Below are positions 1 through 40,838 of a DNA stretch of 42,367 bases, one piece after another. The notes below the pieces were generated by a model. It searched no databases. It had not been told where the DNA came from and saw only the letters and a program-made list of their open reading frames with translations. Position numbers and translations under genes: made by a program. Every line of letters begins with the position of its first letter. The stretch's first letter is position 1. Source of the DNA: a virus; the IMG/VR virus record IMGVR_UViG_3300025684_000024, positions 1 through 42,367 of that record; one strand, given 5' to 3'.

Positions 1-318
1 AGTCAATAGTTGTTTAGATGTTTTTACGGGTTCACACCCATCCTTATCGATCTTAGTTAACCTATTCTCGAACTTATCAAACCTACTGTCAATATGACGA
101 TAGAGATTTTCTATTTGACTATTGAGGTCTTTCACCTCACCATCCACCCTAAGGTGAAATTCTCTTTGATTATTATCTAAATCTAATTGTGTTCCATTTA
201 TTGCTTCCTCGAAACCATTGGAACGTTGTTTAACCTTAAATATACCTACTATAGCATACCCTAATCCGAGCACACCAATTGATGTAAACATACCTAAAAC
301 GAATTCTAAATTTTCCAT
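1..318 (-). CDS. Small membrane-anchored coiled-coil protein (partial)
   Basis: This reverse-strand frame starts with ATG at 318-316 and stays open for 106 codons to the window edge, so the C-terminus is missing. The N-terminus (MENLEFVLGM, residues 1-10) leads into a hydrophobic helix to about residue 24. A charged, heptad-like segment follows (about residues 35-95, with LNSQIENLYRHIDSRFDKFE). That predicts one membrane anchor with a coiled coil on one side. It is divergent from the holin/endolysin cassette, with 149 bases between them. I do not recognise the family. A lysis accessory or membrane tether is possible from position only. Confidence 0.6.
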   Translation of the reverse strand, partial: MENLEFVLGMFTSIGVLGLGYAIVGIFKVKQRSNGFEEAINGTQLDLDNNQREFHLRVDGEVKDLNSQIENLYRHIDSRFDKFENRLTKIDKDGCEPVKTSKQLLT

Positions 319-422
319 AATTTATAGTTTTAATTTAATTTTATGTCAAAGAACGATAGTTTATATAAGTATAAACAAAAAAATTGATATAGTCAATCCT
401 TTGATATTTCAAAATCTTACGA

Positions 423-430
423 TATTTATT
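423..430 (+). promoter_or_regulatory. Late-promoter-like motif TATTTATT
   Basis: TATTTATT lies 37 bases before the holin-candidate start at 468, in the intergenic gap. A TTTG lies 19 bases upstream, so this copy also resembles a Bacteroidetes -33/-7 promoter. It would serve the whole lysis/secretion cassette. Confidence 0.4.
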
Positions 431-467
431 AGTAAGTAAAAATAAAATTAATTAAAATTTAAAAGTT

Positions 468-704
468 ATGGCATTCAAAGACATTTTTAAAGATGAGAAT
501 AATATCAACGAAAAGTCGGTGGTTGGTTTCGCATCATTTGCAATCATGGTAATATTTGCAGTTGCAGATTTATTGACGGGGTACTTTGGTAAGGACCTTG
601 TTATAAACGAATTTATTTATAATTCGTTCGTTGTTATTACTCTTGGATCTTTCGGTATTGCTGAGGTAGGTAAAATCTTTGGGAAAAAAGGTGGAGAACA
701 ATAA
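468..704 (+). CDS. Two-TM small membrane protein, candidate holin
   Basis: The product has 78 residues. A polar N-terminus (about 1-18) is followed by two hydrophobic segments, about residues 19-38 (VVGFASFAIMVIFAVADLL) and about 46-68, and a short basic tail (KIFGKKGGEQ). Small size, two membrane spans, a charged tail and position directly upstream of the endolysin are the usual marks of a holin, which lets the amidase reach the cell wall by opening the inner membrane. No sequence motif defines holins, so the call rests on topology and context. The start follows an A/T-rich leader without a Shine-Dalgarno sequence. It is 25 bases from the next gene and probably co-transcribed with it. Confidence 0.6.
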   Translation: MAFKDIFKDENNINEKSVVGFASFAIMVIFAVADLLTGYFGKDLVINEFIYNSFVVITLGSFGIAEVGKIFGKKGGEQ

Positions 705-729
705 ATTTAAGGTATAATAATTAAAGAAC

Positions 730-1611
730 ATGTTATTAAAAAATGGAGTAAGAGGAAATGAAGTTAAAGATCTACAAGAATACTTGGGTATACATGCAGA
801 TGGGATCTTTGGTAAAGGAACTGAAGAATCTGTTAAAAAATGGCAATCCAATAATGGTTTGGACTCTGACGGTATTGTTGGTCCTGCCACTTGGGATGCT
901 ATGGGTTTGGCTACTACTGACAATTCAGAGAAAATATTCACAACCGAAAATGGATTAATTGTAAATAAACATCACTTACCAGTTGGTGAATATAAAATAG
1001 GTCCAACAAATAAGGAGTACGTTTTTATACATCACACTGCGGGTTGGAATAACCCATATAACTGTATTGATTCTTGGGGTCGAGACAATAGAGGTGCGGT
1101 GGCTACTGAATTCGTATTAGGTGGACAATCCGTTAAAGGGAATGACAACAAATACGATGGTGAAGTTGTACAATCATTTCCTGAGGGGTCATATGGTTGG
1201 CACTTAGGTAAAAATGGATCACAGTACATGCACGAACATTCAGTAGCTATTGAGGTATGTAATTTTGGGTACATTAAAGATGGTAAAACATATGCGGGTA
1301 CAAGAGTTGCGGATGATCAAATAGTTACGTTGTCACAACCATTTAAAGGTTATAAGGATTGGCATAGATATTCTGACAAACAAATTGAGTCACTACATAA
1401 ATGGATTCTTTGGGTATCAGAAAGAGACAGTATTGATGTACGTAAAGGTTTACCTGATCTTATTCGTAAGATAGGTGTATCAGCATTTGAATTTCAAGAT
1501 GATGCTTATTACGGAAGAGTCAAAGGACTATGGACACATACTAATACACGTAAAGATAAATACGATATGTTTCCACAACAGGAACTTATTGATATGTTAT
1601 TAAGTCTCTAA
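730..1611 (+). CDS. Endolysin: peptidoglycan-binding domain plus N-acetylmuramoyl-L-alanine amidase
   Basis: The enzyme is predicted to cleave the amide bond between N-acetylmuramic acid and the stem peptide. Residues 3-60 match a PG_binding_1 repeat (GNEVKDLQEYLG, ADGIFGKGTEESVKKWQ, DGIVGPATWDAM). Residues about 95-285 look like an Amidase_2 domain: IHHTAGW at 100-106 supplies the first zinc-ligand His, HEHSVAIEVCNFG at 168-180 the central strand, and WTHTNTRKDKYDMFP at 268-282 the second His (H270) with a likely Asp ligand (D276 or D279). No signal peptide is visible, so it fits a holin-dependent cytoplasmic endolysin. With 293 residues it is a full-length two-domain enzyme. A cohesin/dockerin-type export cassette follows after 21 bases. 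Confidence 0.88.
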   Translation: MLLKNGVRGNEVKDLQEYLGIHADGIFGKGTEESVKKWQSNNGLDSDGIVGPATWDAMGLATTDNSEKIFTTENGLIVNKHHLPVGEYKIGPTNKEYVFIHHTAGWNNPYNCIDSWGRDNRGAVATEFVLGGQSVKGNDNKYDGEVVQSFPEGSYGWHLGKNGSQYMHEHSVAIEVCNFGYIKDGKTYAGTRVADDQIVTLSQPFKGYKDWHRYSDKQIESLHKWILWVSERDSIDVRKGLPDLIRKIGVSAFEFQDDAYYGRVKGLWTHTNTRKDKYDMFPQQELIDMLLSL

Positions 1612-1632
1612 GTAAACTATATAGGTTGGTGT

Positions 1633-2829
1633 ATGAAAAATTTAATAAGATTTATCGTATTCTCTATTCTGTGCACCAACGCATATGGACAATCCACAAC
1701 TACAGTAAACTTACGTTCACTTAAGACTCACTATGGTGGGAGCCAATCAGGTCAGTACTATTCACAAAATGCTAACAACCATACAGAATTTGATGCAATG
1801 GTTAATCTTGCCGATGCCGGTACTACACTTTATTTAGATACAACTGTAGATATAACAAGTTACGAAGGACCAAGAGGTGGTAATCATACTCCTCAACAAC
1901 TATGGAATCCACCAAGATGGGGTGGAGCCGGTGCTGACAGATATGCAATTATCTATACAGGTTGGTTTAAACCTAACAAAACAGGTACATACGGGTTCAG
2001 AACATTCACCGATGACTCACATGAGTTTATGATTAAAGGTATTGGTAAAACTAATGATATAGTTACTAAATATTATGGTTGGAATACATGGGCTTATGGT
2101 ACGGCAACTTTAGATAAAAATACATGGTATGAGTTTGAATATAGAATTCAAAATTTTGGTGGTATAGGTGCTGCAAATTTTCAATATAAAATACCAAGTA
2201 GTAATACATACAACCAACTTAGTCCTAATCATCCATTTGCAGAATGGACTTCTACAGATCCTAACGCAGTACCTATCACGGCAAGTGGTTATATTAAAGG
2301 TGCAGAAGAACAAGGTATTGCAGGACAAACAGTTTATCTAAAGACACAGAATAAAAATCAAGTTGGTTTTTCATATACAACTCAAGCAACAACAACAACA
2401 GATTCAAATGGGTATTATTCTTTTAATACCACATTAAACTACAACGATTACGATTTTACAATAGATATTAATCCATCATTAGGAACACTCACAACCTCAG
2501 ACATTAATTGGTTTCAAGATAGGTTATTATCTGACACATTCAGTTCAAAGGATTATTGGAGAATGGATGTGAATAATACAGGTTCGTTCTCTGTATCTGA
2601 CATTTATCTAATGCACCAAAGAAGGTTGGGTAACATAACCAGTTTTATTGGTGGAGGACAAGAAATATGGAACACAAATTCCTGGCAAAACCCGACCATT
2701 TGGCCGGCAGTTGCTGCGGATTCAGACGATAAAACAATATACGTTGGTTACGGATCATGGTCTCTATTTGATTTAGCCAATGGAAATCAGACAACATTCT
2801 ATTTATTAAGAGTAGGACATAAAAATTAA
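1633..2829 (+). CDS. Secreted PA14/GLEYA-like protein with dockerin-like module
   Basis: The protein has 398 residues. Residues 1-19 form a signal peptide ending before Gln (NAYG/QS), a typical flavobacterial cleavage context. Residues about 30-190 resemble a PA14/GLEYA beta-sandwich (YTGWFKPNKTGTYGFRTFTDD at 108-128, then a YEFEYR strand), a fold used to bind carbohydrate or ligand. Residues about 215-278 look like an Ig/carboxypeptidase-regulatory-like domain (TDSNGYYSF). Residues 278-335 contain two helix-loop repeats like dockerin type I: LGTLTTSDINWFQDRLL and DVNNTGSFSVSDIYLMHQRRLG. The last 60 residues resemble the C-terminus of the next protein. A secreted, surface-acting role is inferred. 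The target is unknown. Confidence 0.6.
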   Translation: MKNLIRFIVFSILCTNAYGQSTTTVNLRSLKTHYGGSQSGQYYSQNANNHTEFDAMVNLADAGTTLYLDTTVDITSYEGPRGGNHTPQQLWNPPRWGGAGADRYAIIYTGWFKPNKTGTYGFRTFTDDSHEFMIKGIGKTNDIVTKYYGWNTWAYGTATLDKNTWYEFEYRIQNFGGIGAANFQYKIPSSNTYNQLSPNHPFAEWTSTDPNAVPITASGYIKGAEEQGIAGQTVYLKTQNKNQVGFSYTTQATTTTDSNGYYSFNTTLNYNDYDFTIDINPSLGTLTTSDINWFQDRLLSDTFSSKDYWRMDVNNTGSFSVSDIYLMHQRRLGNITSFIGGGQEIWNTNSWQNPTIWPAVAADSDDKTIYVGYGSWSLFDLANGNQTTFYLLRVGHKN

Positions 2830-2846
2830 AAAAATAAAAAAAAACG

Positions 2847-3941
2847 ATGAAACTTAAAAACATTTTTCTAACACTATCTTTGCTAATTGGTACGATGACT
2901 GTCTTCGGGCAGACGACTTCACCTGATGCAACTAAACCTTACATTATCTTTGATTCAACTTATAATTTAGAATCTACATCATCAAGTTCAAACACAACAT
3001 TTGACATTTATTACGATAATACGTCGGGTAATGATGTTAAAGGTATTCAATTCTCTTTCAACTATGATAAAGATGTATTTGATGAACCAACTTTAACGTA
3101 TAACAACACATCAGGACCTATTGGATATTTATCCTATGATGTTGATTCAACAAACGGGGTTGTAAAAGTAGTATGGGTTTATGACGGAGCAACCACCACC
3201 TTCAATATGACTGCTGGTAATATGTTCACAGTAGATATCCCTTTTTTAAATAGTTATACAAACGCATCAGTAAATGATGTAGATTTCACTACTGATCTTA
3301 CCGCTTATTATGTAAAGACCGATGGAACTGATGGTATATTAGGTACCTCAGATAATGGTGGTAACTTTATAGAACCTGCATTTGATTATGTTGCAACTAT
3401 CTTAAATAGTGGAACAAATCCAGCTGAATCTATTCCTGTAATTTTACAAAAATCATCGGATGGTTCTTCTTGGACAGATGTCGATACAAAAACTACTGGA
3501 TCAGATGGGAAGGCAACATTCTCAGAAAATTTAGACCAAGATTATTGGCAGATCAGACTTAAGATTGCAAGTGGATTAGATGCAAGTGCAGCACTATCAA
3601 CTGCAGATGCTAATATGATCGCACAAATTGCTGCGGGAGTACAAACAACGTCAGGTATACAATTTTATACGGGTAATCCAAATCAAACAAATGGTGTAAC
3701 AGCATCAGATTCGTATATGGTATTCGCAAGGTTAGCACAAGGTAACTCAACTTACCCGTCTAACCCAGATGTTTTATTCTTTACTGAAGCACAATATAAT
3801 ACTATTAATGGTTCAAGTTCAGACCAATCAAGTTCTATTCCAGGTCTAACGGAATTTTTATCTCCATTAATTAATAGCACAACTACGGGTAACTTCTATA
3901 TGTTAATATTAGGAGACGCCAACGGAACGGGTTTAAATTAA
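2847..3941 (+). CDS. Secreted cohesin-like plus dockerin-like protein
   Basis: The product has 364 residues with a signal peptide at 1-21 (MTVFG/QTT). Residues about 32-165 are cohesin-like: a hydrophobic strand followed by GIQFSFNYDKDVFDEPTLTY (66-85), the pattern expected of cohesin and related beta-sandwiches. Residues about 178-240 form a second beta domain (IPVILQKSSDGSSW, TTGSDGKATF). Residues 245-300 carry two dockerin-like repeats (LSTADANMIAQIAAG and GVTASDSYMVFARLAQG). The C-terminus (GNFYMLILGDANG) parallels the TFYLLRVG end of the upstream protein, so the two share a C-terminal module. One chain thus has both a cohesin-like and a dockerin-like part and could link others. Remote similarity only; function inferred. 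Confidence 0.55.
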   Translation: MKLKNIFLTLSLLIGTMTVFGQTTSPDATKPYIIFDSTYNLESTSSSSNTTFDIYYDNTSGNDVKGIQFSFNYDKDVFDEPTLTYNNTSGPIGYLSYDVDSTNGVVKVVWVYDGATTTFNMTAGNMFTVDIPFLNSYTNASVNDVDFTTDLTAYYVKTDGTDGILGTSDNGGNFIEPAFDYVATILNSGTNPAESIPVILQKSSDGSSWTDVDTKTTGSDGKATFSENLDQDYWQIRLKIASGLDASAALSTADANMIAQIAAGVQTTSGIQFYTGNPNQTNGVTASDSYMVFARLAQGNSTYPSNPDVLFFTEAQYNTINGSSSDQSSSIPGLTEFLSPLINSTTTGNFYMLILGDANGTGLN

Positions 3942-3942
3942 T

Positions 3943-4680
3943 ATGAGAATATTACTACTAACTTTAGTATTAGTATTCACAACAAGTGTACAGTCTCAGG
4001 TCGTATTTAACGTACCTGAGATCGATGTACCCGTAAGTGATTATATTAACCTACCTGTAGAAATTGAAACTGCGGGTGAGATTGTTGGTAGTCTTGAATT
4101 TGCATTGAACTACGACCCAAACTATTTAGAGTTTGTGTCAATCACCATAACACCTAAAGCACAAGAGTGGTTAACATATACCATGGATTGGGAAGGTGAA
4201 ACCGTTAGATGGGGAGGTTACGACGCTTCCTTTGGTAATTTTACTATAAGTAATACGACAGAATTATTTACGGTGAGGTTTAGGGTTACTAATCAAGATT
4301 GGGATACAATTCCAATTACGATAGGTAGAAAAACTGCCGGTACAGAATTAGGGTGGGATGTTGAGGTTGAAAATACCGATGGGTATGTAAATAAACGATC
4401 GATGCCTTTTAATACCTCACCAACTGACGGTATTTATGGGATTGTTTATCCTGTACCAACAAAAGGTCCAATTACATTTGACCTAACAGTACCAGATAAT
4501 GGATATTATATGATTAGAGTATTGAATTATGGTGGATCAGAATTTCTAAAACAAAGAAAGAAGTTCTTTGCTGGATGGGTACAATTTCAAATGGATTTAT
4601 CCTCATTACCACAAGGTGTTTATTTATTACATATTACCAATGGACAATTTGTCAAAACATTTAAAACAATAAAACAATGA
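3943..4680 (+). CDS. Secreted cohesin-like protein with type IX secretion C-terminal sorting domain
   Basis: The product has 245 residues. The signal peptide is 1-18 (TTSVQS/QVV). Residues about 22-147 are cohesin-like: DYINLPVEIETAGEIVGSLE followed by FALNYDPNYLEFVSIT, the classic cohesin opening strands. Residues about 165-245 match the T9SS sorting tail (Por_Secre_tail/TIGR04183 type): VYPVPTKGPITFDL at the start, LSSLPQGVYLLHITNG (about 219-234) and a basic end KTFKTIKQ. In Bacteroidetes such tails send proteins through the type IX translocon and are then removed or linked to surface lipopolysaccharide. A phage gene with this tail implies use of the host T9SS. It overlaps the next gene by ATGA. 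Confidence 0.7.
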   Translation: MRILLLTLVLVFTTSVQSQVVFNVPEIDVPVSDYINLPVEIETAGEIVGSLEFALNYDPNYLEFVSITITPKAQEWLTYTMDWEGETVRWGGYDASFGNFTISNTTELFTVRFRVTNQDWDTIPITIGRKTAGTELGWDVEVENTDGYVNKRSMPFNTSPTDGIYGIVYPVPTKGPITFDLTVPDNGYYMIRVLNYGGSEFLKQRKKFFAGWVQFQMDLSSLPQGVYLLHITNGQFVKTFKTIKQ

Positions 4681-4937
4681 GTAAGAATAAAGGATTTTTT
4701 TCGGAAATTAAAAACCAAATAGTAACAGGAATTGGATTAGTAATAACAGCAGGATTTGGATTATTAATAGCTAATATGCAGTCTATATTTGAACCTAAAG
4801 AAGAAGTTCAACAGCCACCAATGATAGAACAAACAATTAGTATCCCACCATCAACTAAAGATACAATAGTGATATCTAAGACTATAAAAATAGAACCAGT
4901 TAAACCTAAAAAAGAAGAGGGAGAAATAACATGGTAA
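4677..4937 (+). CDS. Single-TM protein with Pro-rich extracytoplasmic tail
   Basis: The product has 86 residues. A short basic N-terminus (MSKNKGFFSEIKNQ) precedes one membrane helix at about 15-35 (IVTGIGLVITAGFGLLIANM). A polar, Pro-, Glu- and Lys-rich tail of about 50 residues follows (QQPPMIEQTISIPPST, KIEPVKPKKEEGE). The expected topology is N-in, with the tail in the periplasm. The gene overlaps both neighbours by 4-7 bases, so it is translated with the T9SS-tailed protein and the CsgG-like protein. Roles that fit are an inner-membrane partner of the exporter or an i-spanin-like lysis protein. No family is recognised. Confidence 0.6.
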   Translation: MSKNKGFFSEIKNQIVTGIGLVITAGFGLLIANMQSIFEPKEEVQQPPMIEQTISIPPSTKDTIVISKTIKIEPVKPKKEEGEITW

Positions 4938-5635
4938 GAGTTTTATTAATTATATCGATGTTGCTAAGTTTTACCGCTAATGCTCAATTAGGTAAAACGG
5001 AGACAGAAAACTATAAAGGTAAGTTTGAACAAGATGCCGATATCGATGAGGTATCAGATTATATGTTGGACTATCAATTACCTATTCAAGTATTAAACAT
5101 TGGATTCACACCAGAACTATATGAATTTTATCCTGAACTAAGGGAGAATAGAGTAGGATTGGGTGTGAGTAATATTACATTATCTTATTTAGAATGGACC
5201 GATAGATTTTTATTTACAGAGGATAAAGAAGACATTAAACAGAGGATGGTTAAACAACATAAGGCATCGACAAAAGGTATATCATCAAATGATATTAAGG
5301 TTGTTGGTAATGTTGTATTAGCAGAATATTTTGTTTACGTCGAAATATACGATTATTCGGTATCTGAAGAAGAGGAAGTCACAATTGACGGGGTGAAAAC
5401 CGTACTAAAAACCATTATTGGAATGCAAGTAAGATTTGTTAATGCTGAGACTGGTGTTATTTTTACTGGGAGTGGAAGTGGTGAAGCAATAACAATTAAA
5501 AGAACTAAAATTGGTTCTGTGAATAATGTTAAGTTTAACGAATCAACAATCGGTATTGCAACTAAAAAGGCGTTAGAATCTGGAACGGCCCGTATTGTAA
5601 AAAGAATGATTAAACGTGGGATATTTGAAGAATAA
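4931..5635 (+). CDS. CsgG-family curli-secretion-like pore protein
   Basis: The product has 234 residues with a signal peptide at 1-18 (LSFTANA/QLGK). The body has the CsgG/FlgO-like pattern: a DIKVVGNVVLAEYFVYVEIYD strand pair near 117-140, RFVNAETGVIFTGSGSGEA near 173-192 (typical of CsgG strands that describe an energised or activated pool) and a closing helix IGIATKKALESGTARIVKRM. CsgG forms a nine-subunit outer-membrane channel for unfolded curli subunits. Here the usual lipobox Cys of CsgG is absent; Gln occupies the predicted mature N-terminus. Neighbours are an outer-membrane barrel candidate downstream and a one-TM protein upstream. An alternative is another periplasmic protein of the same fold. 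Confidence 0.6.
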   Translation: MVRVLLIISMLLSFTANAQLGKTETENYKGKFEQDADIDEVSDYMLDYQLPIQVLNIGFTPELYEFYPELRENRVGLGVSNITLSYLEWTDRFLFTEDKEDIKQRMVKQHKASTKGISSNDIKVVGNVVLAEYFVYVEIYDYSVSEEEEVTIDGVKTVLKTIIGMQVRFVNAETGVIFTGSGSGEAITIKRTKIGSVNNVKFNESTIGIATKKALESGTARIVKRMIKRGIFEE

Positions 5636-6974
5636 AATAGTAAGTGTACTTTTATTTTTATTACCATTGGTCAGTTATGGTCAGTGGTCTTATACGTTTA
5701 CAGATCCTTGTACTTTAAATCAACAGACAATTCAAATGGGTTCAAGTGATGAGATCGTTTTGAATTATTTTGGTAATGTTCAGACATTTACACAACCAGA
5801 CTTCACTAACGGTACTTTTGATTCATGGATGAGTTTGGTTACTCAGTCTAACTCTTCAAATCCATGTCAAAGTGTTACTCAAATCATTACAAATAATACA
5901 AATGCAATAATAGTTCAAAATACTATTACGGTAATCACAAATATAATGAGTGTTTTAGGTGGTGATATGTTACCACAGGCACTCTCCTCATCAGGAGTTC
6001 CCGTGGCGGAAGCCATCGATAACGCATCTAAAAGTAAAAAGAAGAAGAAGAAGAAAAAGGAAACTAAATCCGATAACCCCAATAATAGTTCCGATAACGA
6101 AAATGGGAGTGAAGATAGTAGTAGTTCCGAACAGTCCAACGGGGAGAGTTCAAATGAAACCAACGGTAGTCAAAGTGGTACTAACGAAAACAGTAGTCAA
6201 GGTAGTACTAACGAAAGTGGTACATCAACAGAAGGTACTACAACAAAAACAGAGGATGAATCAAAAGAAGGTGGATTGGGTATGTCTTTAGCTAATTCTA
6301 TTTCAAATGCGGTTGATGGTGGAGAATCAGATAATAAAAACAGAGGTTCATTAATCGCATCAGGTGATATTGTGGTTATTGATAATCAAGATAACTCAAA
6401 TGGTCGTCAAGTAAAGGTAGTAGGTTCTATTACAAGTGCGAACACAAAAAAGAATAGGGTTCAAGGTGCATTATTTACATATACAACTGTAACTAACGAT
6501 TTTAGTTTGACGTTTTATAAATCATGGATTAACCCAAATAGAACATTTAACTTAGTAGGTGCAAATACTACATTAACTAATTTTAATCAAAATCATTTAA
6601 ACACAACCACTGTTTTAGAATCATTTAAGTTCGGTAAGAAGAAATTTACAGGAATGATTGGTACTAACTTTACAATAGGTAAGTTAGGTAAACGAGAACT
6701 ACAAAATCTATCTGCGGTTAGTGGTGTCCATAGAAACTTTAGAGTAAGTCCAAGGATTACAACATCTGCACTAATATTAGGAGTCTACTCTCCATTCACA
6801 CAATACTATGAAGGTCAATGGTGGGATCCAGGTCTATTGATTGTACCATTTAGTTCTTGGGATATTCAAATTACAAAAACATTTAAATATAACATTAGTT
6901 TTACTGGTGTTTGGCAATCGGGCGGAAACGCATTAAACTATCAAATACTGACTGGTGGTAAAATCAGATTCTAA
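5616..6974 (+). CDS. Outer-membrane beta-barrel candidate with Lys tract and Ser/Asn-rich linker
   Basis: The frame starts at GTG 5616; TTG at 5625 would give the neater signal peptide MKNKIVSVLLFLLPLVSYG/QW. Both starts overlap the CsgG-like gene. Residues about 25-140 are rich in Gln, Asn and Thr. A run of eight Lys follows (about 140-148) and then about 75 residues of Ser/Asn/Gly/Glu repeats. The C-terminal half (from about 240) has alternating amphipathic strands and ends in GGKIRF, with the terminal Phe usual in outer-membrane barrels recognised by BAM. It may be the outer-membrane partner of the CsgG-like protein. No family is recognised, and it is not obviously CsgF or CsgE. Confidence 0.55.
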   Translation: MGYLKNKIVSVLLFLLPLVSYGQWSYTFTDPCTLNQQTIQMGSSDEIVLNYFGNVQTFTQPDFTNGTFDSWMSLVTQSNSSNPCQSVTQIITNNTNAIIVQNTITVITNIMSVLGGDMLPQALSSSGVPVAEAIDNASKSKKKKKKKKETKSDNPNNSSDNENGSEDSSSSEQSNGESSNETNGSQSGTNENSSQGSTNESGTSTEGTTTKTEDESKEGGLGMSLANSISNAVDGGESDNKNRGSLIASGDIVVIDNQDNSNGRQVKVVGSITSANTKKNRVQGALFTYTTVTNDFSLTFYKSWINPNRTFNLVGANTTLTNFNQNHLNTTTVLESFKFGKKKFTGMIGTNFTIGKLGKRELQNLSAVSGVHRNFRVSPRITTSALILGVYSPFTQYYEGQWWDPGLLIVPFSSWDIQITKTFKYNISFTGVWQSGGNALNYQILTGGKIRF

Positions 6975-6976
6975 TT

Positions 6977-7414
6977 ATGAAAAATCTATTAATATTTTTA
7001 TTATTCCCAACTCTCCTATTTTCGCAGGTTGACTGTTATTCAATTAAATCGGTAACCACCGAAATTGAAATGGAGGAAATAAGTAAAAGAAGGATTACGT
7101 TTGGTATCAAACAAATGATGGAGGACATTATCTCAGATAAATACGATTTATGTATGAATGGTAAACCTGTTAATGTTGTTGTTCAATCAATAGAGTCCCC
7201 ACAAACAGGAATTCAAATTGGTCCGTGGACAAAAGTGAGTAAAAAAACAATAGTTACTTTATTAATCTATATGGATGGAAAAGTAACTGAAGTAGAAGGG
7301 AAGTCTAAATCAACGGTGAAGTCCACATTTATAGATTTACAAAACAATGACATACCTTTTAGTGAAACATCGTTTTCATCCGCAATTAAAAAGGCCATTG
7401 AGAAAGGGATATAA
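6977..7414 (+). CDS. Small exported protein, last gene of secretion cassette
   Basis: The product has 145 residues. The signal peptide is about residues 1-16 (LLIFLLFPTLLFS/QV). The mature part mixes helix and strand: a basic helix at about 35-50 (SKRRITFGIKQMMEDI), two strands (KPVNVVVQSIE, TIVTLLIYMDGKV), then EGKSKSTVKSTFIDLQNN and a C-terminal helix ETSFSSAIKKAIEKGI. The strand-strand-helix ending recalls the periplasmic domain of CsgG-type proteins, but I cannot assign a family. It starts two bases after the barrel gene and is followed by a strong terminator, so it closes the transcription unit. Confidence 0.55.
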   Translation: MKNLLIFLLFPTLLFSQVDCYSIKSVTTEIEMEEISKRRITFGIKQMMEDIISDKYDLCMNGKPVNVVVQSIESPQTGIQIGPWTKVSKKTIVTLLIYMDGKVTEVEGKSKSTVKSTFIDLQNNDIPFSETSFSSAIKKAIEKGI

Positions 7415-7450
7415 AAAAATAAAACCCCAACAAGGTTGCTGGGGTTTTTG
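7414..7450. terminator. Bidirectional intrinsic terminator
   Basis: A perfect 9-bp stem pairs AAAACCCCA (7421-7429) with TGGGGTTTT (7440-7448) around a 10-base loop. It ends in T-rich sequence on the + strand and is preceded by an A-rich run that gives a U tract on the - strand. It separates the convergent secretion cassette and clp gene. Confidence 0.8.
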
Positions 7451-7520
7451 GTCTACAGTGGTTTCAACACCACCGATATTAACGTGAAAAACGAAAAGGT
7501 GTATCGGCAAAGATAACCTT
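7432..7520. other. Structured intergenic region, possible RNA element
   Basis: Beyond the terminator, this non-coding stretch holds several complementary segments. AAGGTT (7432-7437) pairs with AACCTT (7515-7520), GTGGT (7458-7462) with ACCAC (7469-7473), and CCGATA (7473-7478) with TATCGG (7502-7507), which would give a closed multibranch shape. The first pairing competes with the terminator loop. It may be a small RNA, a 3-prime UTR element of either convergent gene or chance. Confidence 0.25.
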
Positions 7521-7564
7521 GAATGTATAAATATATATAAAAACCGAAAAAGTCAAGTTTTTAA

Positions 7565-9580
7565 CTAAATAAGGGGGGTATTTTTTAGAATTTCTAAATT
7601 ACCCTCTTTTATTTTTAATATAATACCCATCTCTTTCGTGATATCACCCGTTAAGATATTATCACTAATGAAATCTTCACACAGATTCTGAATAATTCGC
7701 TTTATAGGTCTTGCACCATACTCTTCCTCAGAATTACGTTTTATTATCTCATCAACGACTGTTTTATGAAAAGTAATTTCATAGTTACTCTCCGTAAGTC
7801 TTTCACTTAAAATATTTAATTCAATCTGAACAATTTTCTTTAGTGATTTATCATCTAATTTGTCAAAAACAATTACATCATCAATTCTATTTAGGAATTC
7901 AGGGGTAAATTGATTCTTTAATGACTTTCTAATAATCGAATCTTTAATCTTTTCGTTATTACTATCATCACTAAATCCAATTCCACCACCAAATTCAGAA
8001 ACTTTCTTAGCACCTATATTAGATGTCATGATTATTAGTGTGTTCGTGAAATTAATTTTTCTACCAAACGAATCCGTTAGGTGACCTTCATCTAATATCT
8101 GTAGTAATAGGTTGAAGACATCCTTATGACCTTTTTCTATCTCATCAAATAAGACAACAGAAAATGGGTTGTTCTTAATCTTCTCAGTAAGTTGTCCACC
8201 TTCATCAAATCCAACATAACCAGGAGGGGACCCAATAAGTTTAGAAACGTTGTGTTTCTCCATAAACTCACTCATATCCACCCTAACAATTTTATCAGGA
8301 TCACCAAATAAGGTTTTAGCTAATGTTTTTGCTAAGTGTGTTTTACCAACACCTGTTGATCCTAAAAACATAAATGACCCAATTGGTTTGTTAGAACCTC
8401 TAACACCAACACGGTTCCGTCTAATTGATTTGGAGATGATCTCAACCGCATTATCCTGACCTATAACATTCTTAGATATTGTCTTTTCTAATGATAGAAG
8501 GTTCTTAGTCTCTTTTGTGTCAAGTTTAGTGATTGGGACACCCGTCATCTCGGTTATGATATTATATACATCATCAATAATAACGGGTTTCTTATTTAAC
8601 TTTTGTTCAACACTCCACTTTTTCTTTTCTAACTCTAATTTCTTAATGACCTTTTTCTCATTATCTCTTAGTTCTGCCGCTTTCTCATAATCTTGATTCC
8701 TAACCATTTCTTGTTTATCCAACTTAATTAGATCTGATTGGTTTCTCAGTTTTTCAATAATATCGGGAATTTTCACATTAATTTTCTTTTCGGAACCTAA
8801 TTCATCAAGAATATCTATTGCCTTGTCAGGGAACTGTTTATCGGTAATATATCTTTTAGATAAACTAACGATTGTTTCAATGACATTGTCTTGGTATTCG
8901 ACCATGTGATAATCCTCATAAGAATCTTTTAGGTTTTTAAGAATATCTATTGTTTCATCTATAGTTGGTTCTGTTAGGATGATCTTTTGGAATCGTCTAA
9001 CCAACGCACTATCTTTTTCAATATTCTTCTTATATTCATCAAATGTGGTTGCTCCGATACATTGTATTTCTCCCCTCGCTAATGCAGGTTTAAGAATATT
9101 TGCGGCGTCCATTGATCCTGATGCATTTCCCGCACCGACCATTGTATGAATTTCATCTATGAATACAATTACATTTGGTGCATCTTGTAATTCATTTAAT
9201 ATTGCCTTAATTCTTTCCTCAAACTGACCTCGGTATTTTGTTCCCGCAACTAATGATGTTAAATCGAGGGACATTATACGTTTATCTAAAAGATTAGTTG
9301 GACACGAACCATCATTAATCATAATTGCAAGTTTTTCAACTAACGCGGATTTACCAACCCCCGCATCTCCAACAATAATCGTATTATTCTTCTTTTTCCT
9401 TGAGAGAATTTGAGCAATACGTTTAACTTCTTTATCACGACCGATTATAGGGTCAATTAAACCTTGTTCGGCAAGTTTAATTAAATCTCTTGAAAAATTA
9501 TCTAAAATTGGGGTTGAACTCCCTTTCTTTCCTTTACGTTGTTGTTGAGGTGCTCCCTCTTCAAAAAATTCTACAGACAT
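7565..9580 (-). CDS. clpC-like: ClpC-like AAA+ unfoldase lacking the Clp N-domain
   Basis: This Hsp100 ATPase unfolds proteins for refolding or proteolysis. It has 671 residues and two AAA+ modules. The first has Walker A GDAGVGKS (71-78) and Walker B IDEIH (141-145). The second has GSTGVGKT (407-414), the pore-loop GYVG (454-457), Walker B LFDE (477-480) and arginine-finger region FLNRID. Between them is a short middle domain with a UVR-like NQDYEKAAELRDNEKK (295-310), which points to ClpC rather than ClpB. The usual N-terminal repeat domain of about 140 residues is missing. IGF at 534-536 sits where ClpC and ClpX carry the ClpP-docking loop. It is divergent from the Hsp20 gene. Confidence 0.9.
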   Translation of the reverse strand: MSVEFFEEGAPQQQRKGKKGSSTPILDNFSRDLIKLAEQGLIDPIIGRDKEVKRIAQILSRKKKNNTIIVGDAGVGKSALVEKLAIMINDGSCPTNLLDKRIMSLDLTSLVAGTKYRGQFEERIKAILNELQDAPNVIVFIDEIHTMVGAGNASGSMDAANILKPALARGEIQCIGATTFDEYKKNIEKDSALVRRFQKIILTEPTIDETIDILKNLKDSYEDYHMVEYQDNVIETIVSLSKRYITDKQFPDKAIDILDELGSEKKINVKIPDIIEKLRNQSDLIKLDKQEMVRNQDYEKAAELRDNEKKVIKKLELEKKKWSVEQKLNKKPVIIDDVYNIITEMTGVPITKLDTKETKNLLSLEKTISKNVIGQDNAVEIISKSIRRNRVGVRGSNKPIGSFMFLGSTGVGKTHLAKTLAKTLFGDPDKIVRVDMSEFMEKHNVSKLIGSPPGYVGFDEGGQLTEKIKNNPFSVVLFDEIEKGHKDVFNLLLQILDEGHLTDSFGRKINFTNTLIIMTSNIGAKKVSEFGGGIGFSDDSNNEKIKDSIIRKSLKNQFTPEFLNRIDDVIVFDKLDDKSLKKIVQIELNILSERLTESNYEITFHKTVVDEIIKRNSEEEYGARPIKRIIQNLCEDFISDNILTGDITKEMGIILKIKEGNLEILKNTPLI

Positions 9581-9598
9581 ATATTTTAAGGTTTTATA

Positions 9599-9629
9599 TA
9601 AACATAACGAAAATCATACAAAAAGTCAA
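9599..9629 (-). promoter_or_regulatory. Bacteroidetes-type promoter for clpC-like gene
   Basis: On the reverse strand TTG (9629-9627) is followed after 20 bases by TATGTTTA (9606-9599). This is close to the Bacteroidetes housekeeping consensus TTG-N19/20-TAnnTTTG and ends 19 bases before the ATG. It suggests transcription by unmodified host RNA polymerase, hence an early or middle gene. Confidence 0.45.
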
Positions 9630-9753
9630 ATCTATTTTAAAAAGACATTTAGTCATGATTTTTTATAATATACAGACAAAAAGTCATATATCACGAAATG
9701 GTACTCATATTGTAATAAGAGAATTGATAATAAATAAAAAAAAACGTAAAATT

Positions 9754-10125
9754 ATGTTAGTATTTAAAAATGACCCATTTTTTAAAATGGTAGATAACTT
9801 CTTCGACATTGCTGAAGAAAATGAAACACATGGTCAGGTTATGTGGAATCAAACTTATGATGACAATCAACATATAGTTGAATTTATTGTACCTGGTTTG
9901 AGTAAATCAGACATATCAATAGTTGTGGAGGAAAACCAACTAAAAATTTCACATGAAAAGACGGAAGAGACCTCAAAGTACGTTAATTCATTTGGTAGGG
10001 TATTTGATTTACCCGAAAATGTAGACGATAAGAAGATAACTGCTAAGGTTGAGGATGGTGTTTTACGGGTGTTACTACCAAAAACCAAGAAGAAAAAGTC
10101 ACAAAGAACAATTTCAGTTAATTAA
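9754..10125 (+). CDS. Hsp20/alpha-crystallin small heat-shock protein
   Basis: This is an ATP-independent holdase that binds unfolding proteins. The chosen ATG at 9754 gives 123 residues. The open frame extends upstream to 9490, but that extension is rich in Ile/Lys/Asn codons and runs through the promoter region into the clp gene. The alpha-crystallin domain covers about residues 28-115, with NQHIVEFIVPGLSKSDISIV, the strand VEENQLKISHEK, FGRVFDLPENVDDKKITAK and the hallmark DGVLRVLLPK (A-x-x-x-n-G-v-L pattern). The C-terminal RTISV provides the I/V-x-I/V-like anchor. Pairing with the Clp gene suggests a shared proteostasis role. A hairpin terminator follows. Confidence 0.88.
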   Translation: MLVFKNDPFFKMVDNFFDIAEENETHGQVMWNQTYDDNQHIVEFIVPGLSKSDISIVVEENQLKISHEKTEETSKYVNSFGRVFDLPENVDDKKITAKVEDGVLRVLLPKTKKKKSQRTISVN

Positions 10126-10127
10126 GA

Positions 10128-10150
10128 TAGCCCCCGTAAGGGGGTTTATC
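10128..10150 (+). terminator. Intrinsic terminator after Hsp20 gene
   Basis: CCCCC (10131-10135) and GGGGG (10140-10144) form a tight hairpin with loop GTAA, followed by TTT. It lies three bases past the Hsp20 stop codon. The U tract is short, so efficiency may be moderate. Confidence 0.65.
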
Positions 10151-10160
10151 ATTTCTTAGA

Positions 10161-10168
10161 TATTTATA
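10161..10168 (+). promoter_or_regulatory. Late-promoter-like motif TATTTATA
   Basis: TATTTATA stands 65 bases before the KTSC gene start, just after the Hsp20 terminator. That is the position expected for a new transcription unit. Confidence 0.4.
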
Positions 10169-10233
10169 ATATACATCAGACTGACTTGATTAAATCGTGA
10201 TAAATTGTTATATTAAATTAAAATACAAAAATT

Positions 10234-10476
10234 ATGGCAATACTATCAGAAAAAATCAATGGTAAAGAGATTTTAATTGAAATCGATTCATCTAATTTAA
10301 AGTCTGCATCTTACAATACGGAAGGTGGAACATTAGTCGTCACGTTTAAAAGTGGTGGAAGTTATGAGTATTATAAAGTCCCGTGGGAAGCGTTTACCAA
10401 ATTAAGACTCGCAGAATCACAGGGTAGGTTTTTCAATCTTAGTATTGCAAAGACTTATGAGTTTAAGAAATTATAA
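10234..10476 (+). CDS. KTSC-domain protein
   Basis: The 80-residue product matches the KTSC domain over residues about 18-77. It has SSNLKSASYNTEGGTLVVTF, the G-x-YEYYKVPWEAF strand-turn, and LAESQGRFFNLSIAKTYEF, where the K-T-S-C family shows a conserved small residue plus FN. KTSC domains are small beta folds found alone or at the end of phage and bacterial proteins; one proposal is RNA or nucleotide-related binding, not proven. The stop codon overlaps the ATG of the nucleotidyltransferase gene (TAATG), so the two are probably translated together. Confidence 0.75.
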   Translation: MAILSEKINGKEILIEIDSSNLKSASYNTEGGTLVVTFKSGGSYEYYKVPWEAFTKLRLAESQGRFFNLSIAKTYEFKKL

Positions 10477-39897: not shown

Positions 39898-40838
39898 TAA
39901 AAATCGGGGTATGTTTTAGTTTCAGAAAAGAAATTTCTGTTAACACCGTCAACTCGAGCGTTGATATCCGTTAAACTACCTATTTTACCGTTATTTTCAC
40001 CTTTACCTAACTCATCACCGTCAGACAATGCGTTTTGATGTGTGGAATTATATCCATTACTTTCGTTATAAACGTTTCTTCCTGTGTTATCTGTTCGGGT
40101 GTTGATATCCGTTAAACCACCCACATTTCCTATATTCTCACCTTTACCTAATTCATCACCATCCGACAATGCGTTTTGATGTACCAAACTATATCCGTTT
40201 GAATCATTATATGTGTTTCTATTGGTTAAGTCTGTTCGAGTATTAATATCTGTTAAACTACCAACATTACCGTTGTTTTCACCTTTACCCAGTTCATCAC
40301 CATCAGATAATGCGTTTTCATGAGAAGTACCGTATCCATTCGCCTCAGTATATGTGTTTCTACCTGTATTATCTGTTCGGGTGTTAATATCACTTAATCC
40401 ACCGATTTTACCACTATTCTCACCCTTACCTAATTCATCACCATCCGATAATGCGTTGGGATGACCAACACTATAACCATTATCAGCATTATAAGAGTTT
40501 CTTTTAACGTTTTCTTGTCTTTGGATGTTGTCTGATTTTGTACCGATTTTACCGTTGTTTTCACCTCGACCTAATTCGTCACCATCAGACAGTGCGTTTT
40601 CATGAGATGTACCATATCCATTCGCTTCGGTATATGTGTTTCTACCTAAAACATCTAATCTACTTTGGATATCAATACTACTACCTATTTTTCCATTATT
40701 ATCACCTTTCCCCAATTCGTCACCATCAGATAGTGCGTTGGGATGTGTTGTGTTATAGGATTTAAGACTTTTATATTCATTCCTCGCCAATGCGTCTTCC
40801 CTAAATTTATCAGATATTGATTGTATTTGACTTGCCAT
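39897..40838 (-). CDS. Tandem-repeat protein, six 47-residue units
   Basis: The product has 313 residues: a 19-residue lead (MASQIQSISDKFREDALAR), six units of exactly 47 residues (20-301) and a 12-residue end. Each unit reads about N-x-Y-x-x-x-x-x-Y...H-x-NALSDGDELGKGENNGKIG, then a short T/S-D-I-N-x-R turn. The core NALSDGDELG is identical in all six; the acidic Asp-Gly-Asp loop could bind calcium. No signal peptide. The gene shares one base with the next (39897). A repetitive fibre, sheath-associated or head-decoration protein is plausible. No named family is recognised. Confidence 0.65.
   Translation of the reverse strand: MASQIQSISDKFREDALARNEYKSLKSYNTTHPNALSDGDELGKGDNNGKIGSSIDIQSRLDVLGRNTYTEANGYGTSHENALSDGDELGRGENNGKIGTKSDNIQRQENVKRNSYNADNGYSVGHPNALSDGDELGKGENSGKIGGLSDINTRTDNTGRNTYTEANGYGTSHENALSDGDELGKGENNGNVGSLTDINTRTDLTNRNTYNDSNGYSLVHQNALSDGDELGKGENIGNVGGLTDINTRTDNTGRNVYNESNGYNSTHQNALSDGDELGKGENNGKIGSLTDINARVDGVNRNFFSETKTYPDF
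39936..40781 (-). repeat. Six tandem 141-bp coding repeats
   Basis: The DNA of the repeat protein repeats with a period of 141 bases in frame, six times without insertion or deletion. Units have diverged in synonymous positions (for example several versions of the segment coding SDGDELG), so the array is old rather than a recent duplication. Confidence 0.85.

Follow-up and report, generated by a model that had tools for sequence, protein, structure and literature searches.

The curli clusters of pelagiphages and the cluster of the methylophage Melnitz place a phage-borne gene of CsgG fold within a conserved multigene set aimed at the host outer membrane. As far as the accessible text of the reports goes, phage curli clusters have CsgF, those of pelagiphages have CsgA/B-type genes as well (PMC7029224, PMC9599517, PMC9004378), and a link to lysis has been proposed for CsgG/CsgF of Melnitz (PMC9004378). 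Cryophage bears genes with type A sorting tails of the type IX secretion system (T9SS), one of them with PA14, for which surface change or superinfection exclusion has been suggested; its available text describes these genes as variable cargo, and the words "cohesin" and "curli" do not occur there (PMC7468147). The virus record analysed here, IMGVR_UViG_3300025684_000024 (the window, 42,367 bases), has T4-like head genes, with PHROGs matches to terminase, portal, head protease and major head protein. Directly 3' of an endolysin gene it carries a cassette of seven open reading frames (ORFs), O1 to O7, which we are inclined, by a modest margin of confidence, to read as a phage-encoded surface-display system, an adhesin chain on the infected Bacteroidota cell.

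The cassette shares with the phage curli clusters a CsgG-fold gene in a conserved set. It differs from them in that CsgF and CsgA/B were not found and that nothing in O5, the CsgG-fold protein, points to the transmembrane hairpins of CsgG; instead it encodes what would be a cohesin/dockerin/lectin chain anchored by a T9SS tail, along with a barrel as a protein of its own. Cellulosome scaffoldins have the division that is proposed here, into a cohesin anchor, an adaptor with both modules and a dockerin tip, and in the X-dockerin dyads of cellulosomes a prealbumin-like module precedes the dockerin, as one precedes the dockerin-like segment here. Unlike a cellulosome, the cassette has a lectin-type head as its tip and a T9SS tail on its anchor, no enzyme domains were found in O1 to O3, and the dockerin-like segment shows by eye a single canonical EF-hand repeat. 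In PelC/PelB a CsgG-like fold works with an outer-membrane barrel, and five of 13 rows of Bacteroidota curli CsgG have a long C-terminal extension that looks barrel-like by eye; the cargo of these systems is, however, unrelated, and homology of the O6 barrel to the extension is unsupported (29%). A preliminary description of the window, made from its letters, had supposed the combination to be unusual, and the gene set is indeed named nowhere in the literature searched (mainly abstracts; most subscription papers and bioRxiv preprints lay outside its scope). The cassette is a variant of phage-encoded surface-directed cassettes, in a combination undescribed in that literature.

The seven-gene set and its recurrence

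The preliminary description had proposed seven contiguous, partly overlapping genes after the endolysin, with export-type N-termini, and both features hold. Seven ORFs occupy exactly positions 1633-7414 of the plus strand, with gaps of at most 25 nucleotides (nt); counted from the ORF that starts at 468 through O7, the intergenic distances are 25, 21, 17, 1, -4, -7, -20 and 2 nt. A simple in-house rule finds a hydrophobic N-terminus of signal-peptide or transmembrane (TM) type in all seven products, as against two of the 45 other genes of the window. PHROGs give no function for any of the seven (best match O5 to phrog_11084, of unknown function, E 0.0078).

The same gene set was found in many other contigs, as the preliminary description had hoped it might be. 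A search seeded with O5 gave 116 relatives in IMG/VR, the best 80 of which, with the record of the Flavobacterium phage immuto, make up 81 loci (one of them, L021, is a second immuto copy). O6 is present in all 81, O4 in 79, O3 in 78, O2 in 77, O1 in 74 and O7 in 73, and many of the incomplete loci break off within the cassette; the next most frequent neighbour family reaches only 33 of 81. Searches anchored on the polypeptide in which O2 and O3 are fused (best 80 of 290), on O6 (best 80 of 377) and on O2 avoid choosing loci by O5. They recovered the whole set in 34 of 34, 30 of 30 and 12 of 12 newly found loci with at least 6 kilobases (kb) on each side, respectively, in sets that share contigs and in which the O1 counts might reflect the module that O1 has in common with O2.

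Dereplication at a cut of 95% O5 identity, with more than 6 kb required on both sides of O5, left 43 of 116 loci: 42 IMG/VR contigs and one contig (L082) from a metagenome-assembled genome (MAG). O2 to O7 occur in 43 of these 43 and O1, for which an ORF of its own was required, in 42. The cassette genes are all co-directional, O1 lying on the same strand in 42 of 42. Four orders were seen: fused-4-5-6-1-7 (22 loci), the window's own 1-2-3-4-5-6-7 (12 of the 43), fused-4-5-6-7-1 (eight) and fused-4-5-6-7 (one). Among 50,697 phage records, O5 or the fusion was matched only in immuto isolates (four records). This cultured phage has the full set in the window's order, its genes annotated as hypothetical, cohesin and lectin proteins.

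A scan of cellular genome contigs with O5 found three loci. The 254-kb Bacteroidetes MAG contig L082 contains a complete cassette of the fused type. The contig L083 (12.6 kb) belongs to a Flavobacterium MAG. Besides genes resembling O4, O5 and O7 it encodes a protein with two cohesins, a holin-like product and an endolysin of GH19 type; O6 is present just as a fragment at the contig end. The third, L084, comes from an Ignavibacteriales MAG and is treated below with O5; it is also the only genome matched by the O5 profile among 296. The O6 profile matched none of 395 genomes, a result that shows little because it had no positive control.

Module content of the seven products

O3 consists of a signal peptide, a cohesin domain (amino acids (aa) 22-144) and a T9SS type A sorting domain (aa 168-239). 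Both modules had been named in the preliminary description, and in the window's own protein both score above their Pfam cut-offs (Cohesin 8.9e-10, Por_Secre_tail 1.3e-7); both are found in 11 of 11 separate O3 homologues, and the O3 profile matches a solved cohesin at E 1.3e-3. O3 thus combines a signal peptide with a C-terminal sorting domain above the curated cut-off, the features that mark type A cargo of the T9SS.

O2 comprises a signal peptide, a weak cohesin-like N-terminal domain, a prealbumin-like domain and a dockerin-like segment, and ends in GDANGTGLN. Its N-terminal domain aligns with the O3 cohesin in hhalign (24%, E 8.5e-4). Among 11 separate O2 proteins Pfam finds Cohesin in one (E 0.0022) and Dockerin_1 in none at E<=0.1, and a PDB sequence-profile search of O2 gave nothing below E 0.4. 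O2 and O3 are a single polypeptide in 31 of the 43 dereplicated loci, which argues that the two act together; in 15 such fusions (Pfam, E<=0.1) the sorting tail is found in 15, the cohesin in 14 and Dockerin_1 in 11, the best of these last at 2.3e-4, just below its cut-off.

O1 pairs a variable head with a conserved base. Behind its signal peptide come a PA14-like head (about aa 22-215), a prealbumin/SdrD_B-like domain (aa 218-289), a dockerin-like EF-hand segment (about aa 285-335, by eye) and a conserved C-terminal segment. The C-terminal module is common to O1 and O2, the O2 profile matching O1 proteins down to 2e-13. Across 30 O1 proteins Pfam recognises Lectin_C heads in 19, Laminin_G_3 in five, Ig_7 in four, GEVED in three and PA14 in two; the heads of two O1 proteins examined singly (L022 and L029) contain no recognised domain, and in several O1 the head is inserted, by eye, within the prealbumin-like domain. 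Locus L009 has a GEVED head where that of the window is PA14-like, although its O5 is 88% identical to the window's. From sequence comparison, O1 looks like a conserved mount on which the binding module can be freely exchanged. A PDB sequence-profile search of O1 gave nothing below E 0.1. Of the PA14-like and dockerin-like modules that the preliminary description had seen, both were recovered by Pfam in relatives but neither by Pfam in the window itself. PA14 is recognised in the two O1 already counted and in L016, a homologue that aligns at 71% identity (E 5.3e-5; its 23.5 bits fall short of the cut-off, 24), but has no Pfam match in the window's own O1; Dockerin_1 is found in the 11 fusions and in three of 30 O1 homologues but has no Pfam match in the window's O1 or O2.

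The remaining four products appear to be parts of the envelope. O4 has a single N-terminal TM segment and a polar tail, rich in Pro, Lys and Glu, that ends in Trp, and this final Trp is kept in 43 of 43 dereplicated loci. For O5, a model of moderate confidence (predicted local distance difference test (pLDDT) 65) has the CsgG fold: Foldseek ranks 1-16 are all CsgG, with that of E. coli first (best E 1.8e-7, TM-scores just 0.4-0.5), and VIA gives Z 12.2 with CsgG at ranks 1-8, and Z 10.0 for PelC. Profile comparison with Bacteroidota CsgG agrees (hhalign 56%, E 1.2e-4), while O5 by sequence alone has no CsgG Pfam match and a PDB sequence-profile search gave nothing below E 0.4. The preliminary description had taken O5 for a CsgG-like pore. 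The fold stands at model level, but the pore is not supported: where the alignment places the first transmembrane hairpin of CsgG, O5 reads YDYSVSEEEEVTIDG, a region that is short and has three to five acidic residues in 18 of 18 sequences, and the counterpart of the second hairpin is shortened (by eye). A lipobox-like motif is present in 16 of 43 homologues and not in the window's own O5. O5 would be periplasmic or associated with the outer membrane.

O7 looks like a paralogue of O5, from profile alignments of the two (hhalign 51%, E 1.5e-4). Each of them also matches, at 95%, a 204-aa CsgG-like protein of L084. Positions 8977-16413 of L084 hold an operon with two CsgG-like proteins, the 204-aa protein adjoining the cellular O5 homologue; by eye the operon continues with a CsgG-like/transglutaminase-like protein of 825 aa, an adenylate cyclase that includes a membrane part, and a barrel-like protein of 428 aa. 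O5 and O7 may have originated from such a cellular operon. Profile alignment does not support O7 as CsgE (0.2%) or CsgF (0.7%), and a match of the O7 profile to ribosomal S1 (E 1.4e-3) was set aside as a short stretch.

O6 has a small N-terminal domain with two invariant Cys, a disordered, low-complexity linker and a barrel. The barrel proposed in the preliminary description is reproduced by the model, which has 12 strands (pLDDT 57) and structure matches that are weak and to generic barrels (best E 1.3e-3); a PDB sequence-profile search gave nothing below E 0.1. The linker includes a lysine run and varies greatly in length, so that complete O6 homologues range over 385-736 aa, and Pfam matches to BUD22 and similar families derive from it and were set aside. 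The N-terminal domain resembles CsgF by eye, but profile comparison gives only 9.9%; no homology was found between O6 and the 428-aa protein of L084.

The CsgG fold of O5 is what lends some weight to another account of the cassette, as a curli-like (type VIII) secretion system making an extracellular fibre. O2 would be its polymerising subunit, since with cohesin-like and dockerin-like ends it could chain head to tail, and curli clusters do exist in pelagiphages, according to the accessible text of the reports (PMC7029224, PMC9599517). Against this account, the acidic hairpin of O5 occupies the place of the CsgG transmembrane region, O5 lacks a CsgG Pfam match, the values for O6 and O7 against CsgF and for O7 against CsgE are those given above, and none of the seven products has a Pfam match to CsgF, CsgE or the curli subunits CsgA/B (at sequence level; a very distant CsgF is possible). 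We consider a curli-like fibre quite improbable.

Genome position and neighbouring genes

O5, GH19 endolysins and the major capsid gene were located in 37 long records (at least 100 kb). Four of the 37 had no GH19 match, a weak partial match in one (G429) was dropped, and weak secondary matches were left out. At the 95% O5 cut, 14 of the 25 long records with a full match have a GH19 endolysin no more than 6 kb away from O5, where uniform placement predicts 1.8, and 14 was reached in none of 100,000 simulations of uniform placement, a figure that overstates the certainty because related phages are not independent. The proportion is 11 of 19 at a 90% cut (1.3 expected) and 20 of 32 without a cut; an earlier dereplication by hand, since replaced, gave 17 of 28 (2.2 expected). 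The arrangement varies, the endolysin being downstream, upstream or inverted, or a holin-like gene standing between O4 and O5, and a holin-like or endolysin gene is within 3 kb in 23 of 38 dereplicated fetched loci.

This linkage would suit an outer-membrane lysis apparatus in which O4 resembles an inner-membrane spanin, O5, O7 and O6 breach or fuse the outer membrane, and the lectin and cohesin proteins are accessory. A single TM segment with a polar tail in O4, the overlap of its gene with that of O5 and the lipobox-like motif of some O5 proteins would fit as well, and there is a precedent in the CsgGF pore of Melnitz, proposed to act in lysis timing in the available text of that report (PMC9004378). 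Such an apparatus leaves T9SS anchoring, a cohesin-dockerin chain and exchangeable heads unexplained, though these are as strictly conserved as O4 to O7, and another single-TM coiled-coil gene (family c12) could be the spanin in some loci. O5 is moreover a globular fold of 234 aa, and to our knowledge the known o-spanins are unlike it. We judge this explanation unlikely, if less so than a curli-like fibre.

Phage virions often carry lectin and Ig-type domains, and O1 to O3 might accordingly be ordinary tail or capsid adhesins. The position of the cassette speaks otherwise: the major capsid gene lies within 6 kb of O5 in none of 20 records with a usable match at the 95% cut (median distance 79 kb), none of 17 at 90%, none of 25 without a cut and none of 22 in the hand dereplication, weak fragments in G412 and G417 being left out (that of G412 a 33-residue match about 5 kb from O5, E 4.7e-5). 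In immuto the cassette spans 10.5-16.4 kb, and the virion genes are found at about 82-160 kb. O1 to O3 have signal peptides, O3 a T9SS tail, and none of the seven products belongs to a PHROG structural family. When O1 proteins were compared with all ORFs of immuto and of the window, matches were confined to O1, O2 and O3; O1 as a copy of tail-fibre parts was rejected, with no match to the immuto tail fibres. Virion decoration, which the preliminary description had itself raised as its alternative, is on this evidence of sequence and position very improbable indeed.

The positions of the cassette genes and of other features in the window are collected in Table 1. The label "holin-like" for the first ORF of the run was given because of its small size, hydrophobicity and position; a Pfam search of it and one homologue was empty (best TssN 0.013, below cut-off), and its family (c9) is present in 28 of 81 loci, frequently adjoining the endolysin or the cassette. 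The hairpin that follows O7 separates it from a convergent ClpB-like gene. Five terminator-like hairpins were found in positions 1-10300 against 4.6 expected in shuffles and, because such hairpins are about equally frequent in shuffles, only its position is telling; sigma-70 promoter-like sites were likewise not above shuffles (50 against 51.4).

Table 1. Positions of the cassette genes and other features of the window
Feature	Position	Strand	Basis
Small holin-like ORF, 78 aa, hydrophobic; first of co-directional run	468-704	+	ORF call
Endolysin, PG_binding_1 + Amidase_2	730-1611	+	Pfam 4.6e-14 and 2.3e-9; PHROG endolysin
O1, putative tip protein	1633-2829	+	ORF call, Pfam, alignment
O2, putative adaptor/shaft	2847-3941	+	ORF call, alignment
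O3, putative surface anchor	3943-4680	+	Pfam/NCBIfam above cut-off
O4, one N-terminal TM segment + polar tail	4677-4937	+	alignment
O5, CsgG-fold, periplasmic/outer-membrane-associated protein with acidic hairpin tip	4931-5635	+	model, Foldseek
O6, signal peptide + predicted 12-strand outer-membrane barrel	5616-6974	+	alignment, model
O6 linker	about 5958-6341	+	
O6 barrel	about 6348-6965	+	
O7, signal peptide, small CsgG-like paralogue of O5	6977-7414	+	hhalign
Terminator-like hairpin, 12-bp stem, just 3' of O7	7421-7448	scored minus by tool; possibly bidirectional by eye	
ClpB-like AAA ATPase, 671 aa (within the region given), adjoining cassette	7565-10125	-	by eye
ORF ending in small heat-shock-like protein	9490-10125		by eye
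Tandem-repeat protein, 313 aa	39897-40838	-	
Tandem repeats, period 141 bases (47 aa)	39960-40746		

The ClpB-like neighbour is retained in the closest relatives (L002-L005, L019). The tandem-repeat protein near the other end of the window contains NALSDGDELGKGENNGKIG and has no PHROG match at E<=1e-4. Several families recur beside the cassette in other loci. A signal-peptide protein of about 150 aa with the HExxH motif VHESLHLY (c7, L028:12718-13170 and relatives, 31 of 81 loci) has a weak SprT-like match (6e-4, below cut-off) and is a possible exported zinc protease. A DNA/RNA non-specific endonuclease with a signal-like N-terminus (c11, L001:5205-5783 and relatives, 17 of 81 loci; Endonuclease_NS 1.1e-25) adjoins or sits inside the cassette in many of its loci. 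Among or beside O4, O5 and O6 stands a membrane protein of 115-196 aa with no clear Pfam family (c8, L029:8229-8591 and L083:7905-8477, 29 of 81 loci), and just upstream of O5 an Ala-rich, apolipoprotein-like protein of 327 aa with no Pfam match (c31, L031:8018-9001, eight of 81 loci).

A proposed surface-display system

That the window carries a surface-directed cassette beside its lysis genes is well supported by sequence, because the T9SS tail and cohesin occur in every separate O3, the genes co-occur, the endolysin is linked and the capsid gene is distant. In the surface-display system that we favour, O3 would cross the outer membrane through the host T9SS and be fixed on the surface by its sorting tail, the feature from which both steps are deduced. 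Its cohesin would grip the dockerin-like end of O2, whose own cohesin-like domain would grip O1 likewise, giving a chain of anchor (O3), adaptor (O2) and tip (O1). The distribution of modules is consistent with such an order: cohesin only in O3, both kinds in O2, dockerin only in O1. O4 would lie in the inner membrane and the barrel O6 in the outer one, while the CsgG-fold proteins O5 and O7 would be periplasmic or sit on the outer membrane; together the four would bridge the envelope and probably move O1 and O2 to the outside or keep the assembly in place. O1 and O2 have Sec signals but no detected T9SS tail, so their export is probably the task of this phage-made assembly.

The products are probably made late, together with the lysis genes, and the glycans that the lectin tip encounters would then belong to the infected cell, its debris, its neighbours or particles. 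Most likely the phage gains from having surface glycans covered by the head, so that neither competing phages nor its own progeny would attach to the dying cell or to its debris; we favour such masking in view of the linkage to lysis genes and the exchangeability of the heads. Alternatively, the cell might be tied to particles or neighbours, and aggregation or attachment of this kind fits the sequence data equally well. Superinfection block, aggregation, particle capture and opening of the outer membrane are indistinguishable on present data.

Several points weigh against the surface-display system. The cohesin-like assignment in O2 and the dockerin-like assignment in O1 are weak, and the models of O5 and O6 are of moderate confidence. 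Surface localisation, binding and expression are all deduced from sequence. Export of O1 and O2 by O4 to O7 is conjectural, and a Sec signal alone would leave both in the periplasm. The cassette of L251 has no separate O1. Adjacency to lysis genes, as the preliminary description had it for the window, is frequent but not universal: 11 of the 25 long records, immuto included, show no such linkage, a further five have no usable GH19 match, and the non-independence of related phages tempers the rest. In immuto some 29 kb separate O5 from the annotated pair of holin and GH19 endolysin, though O7 has a different annotated endolysin about 6 kb away.

A bolder version can be offered more tentatively, as possible rather than probable. 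The cassette might encode a new virus-made organelle, in which a trans-envelope machine of O4 to O7 (an inner-membrane tether, two CsgG-fold components and an outer-membrane barrel) and the host T9SS would erect, at lysis, a cohesin-dockerin chain with an exchangeable lectin tip. By coating the dying cell and its debris, the chain would save progeny from being lost on them and would keep rivals out.

As far as sequences go, the set appears to recur as a fixed unit in many phages of aquatic Bacteroidota, often close to lysis genes. If the proposed function is true, phages of a very abundant aquatic bacterial group rebuild the surface of their hosts with a self-contained, modular adhesin system, one that would combine host type IX secretion with an assembly through cohesins and dockerins like that of cellulosomes. 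The proposal would also give a testable answer to the question of why phages bear CsgG-like genes near lysis genes, and phage immuto, which is cultured on a laboratory host, makes the reading open to experiment.

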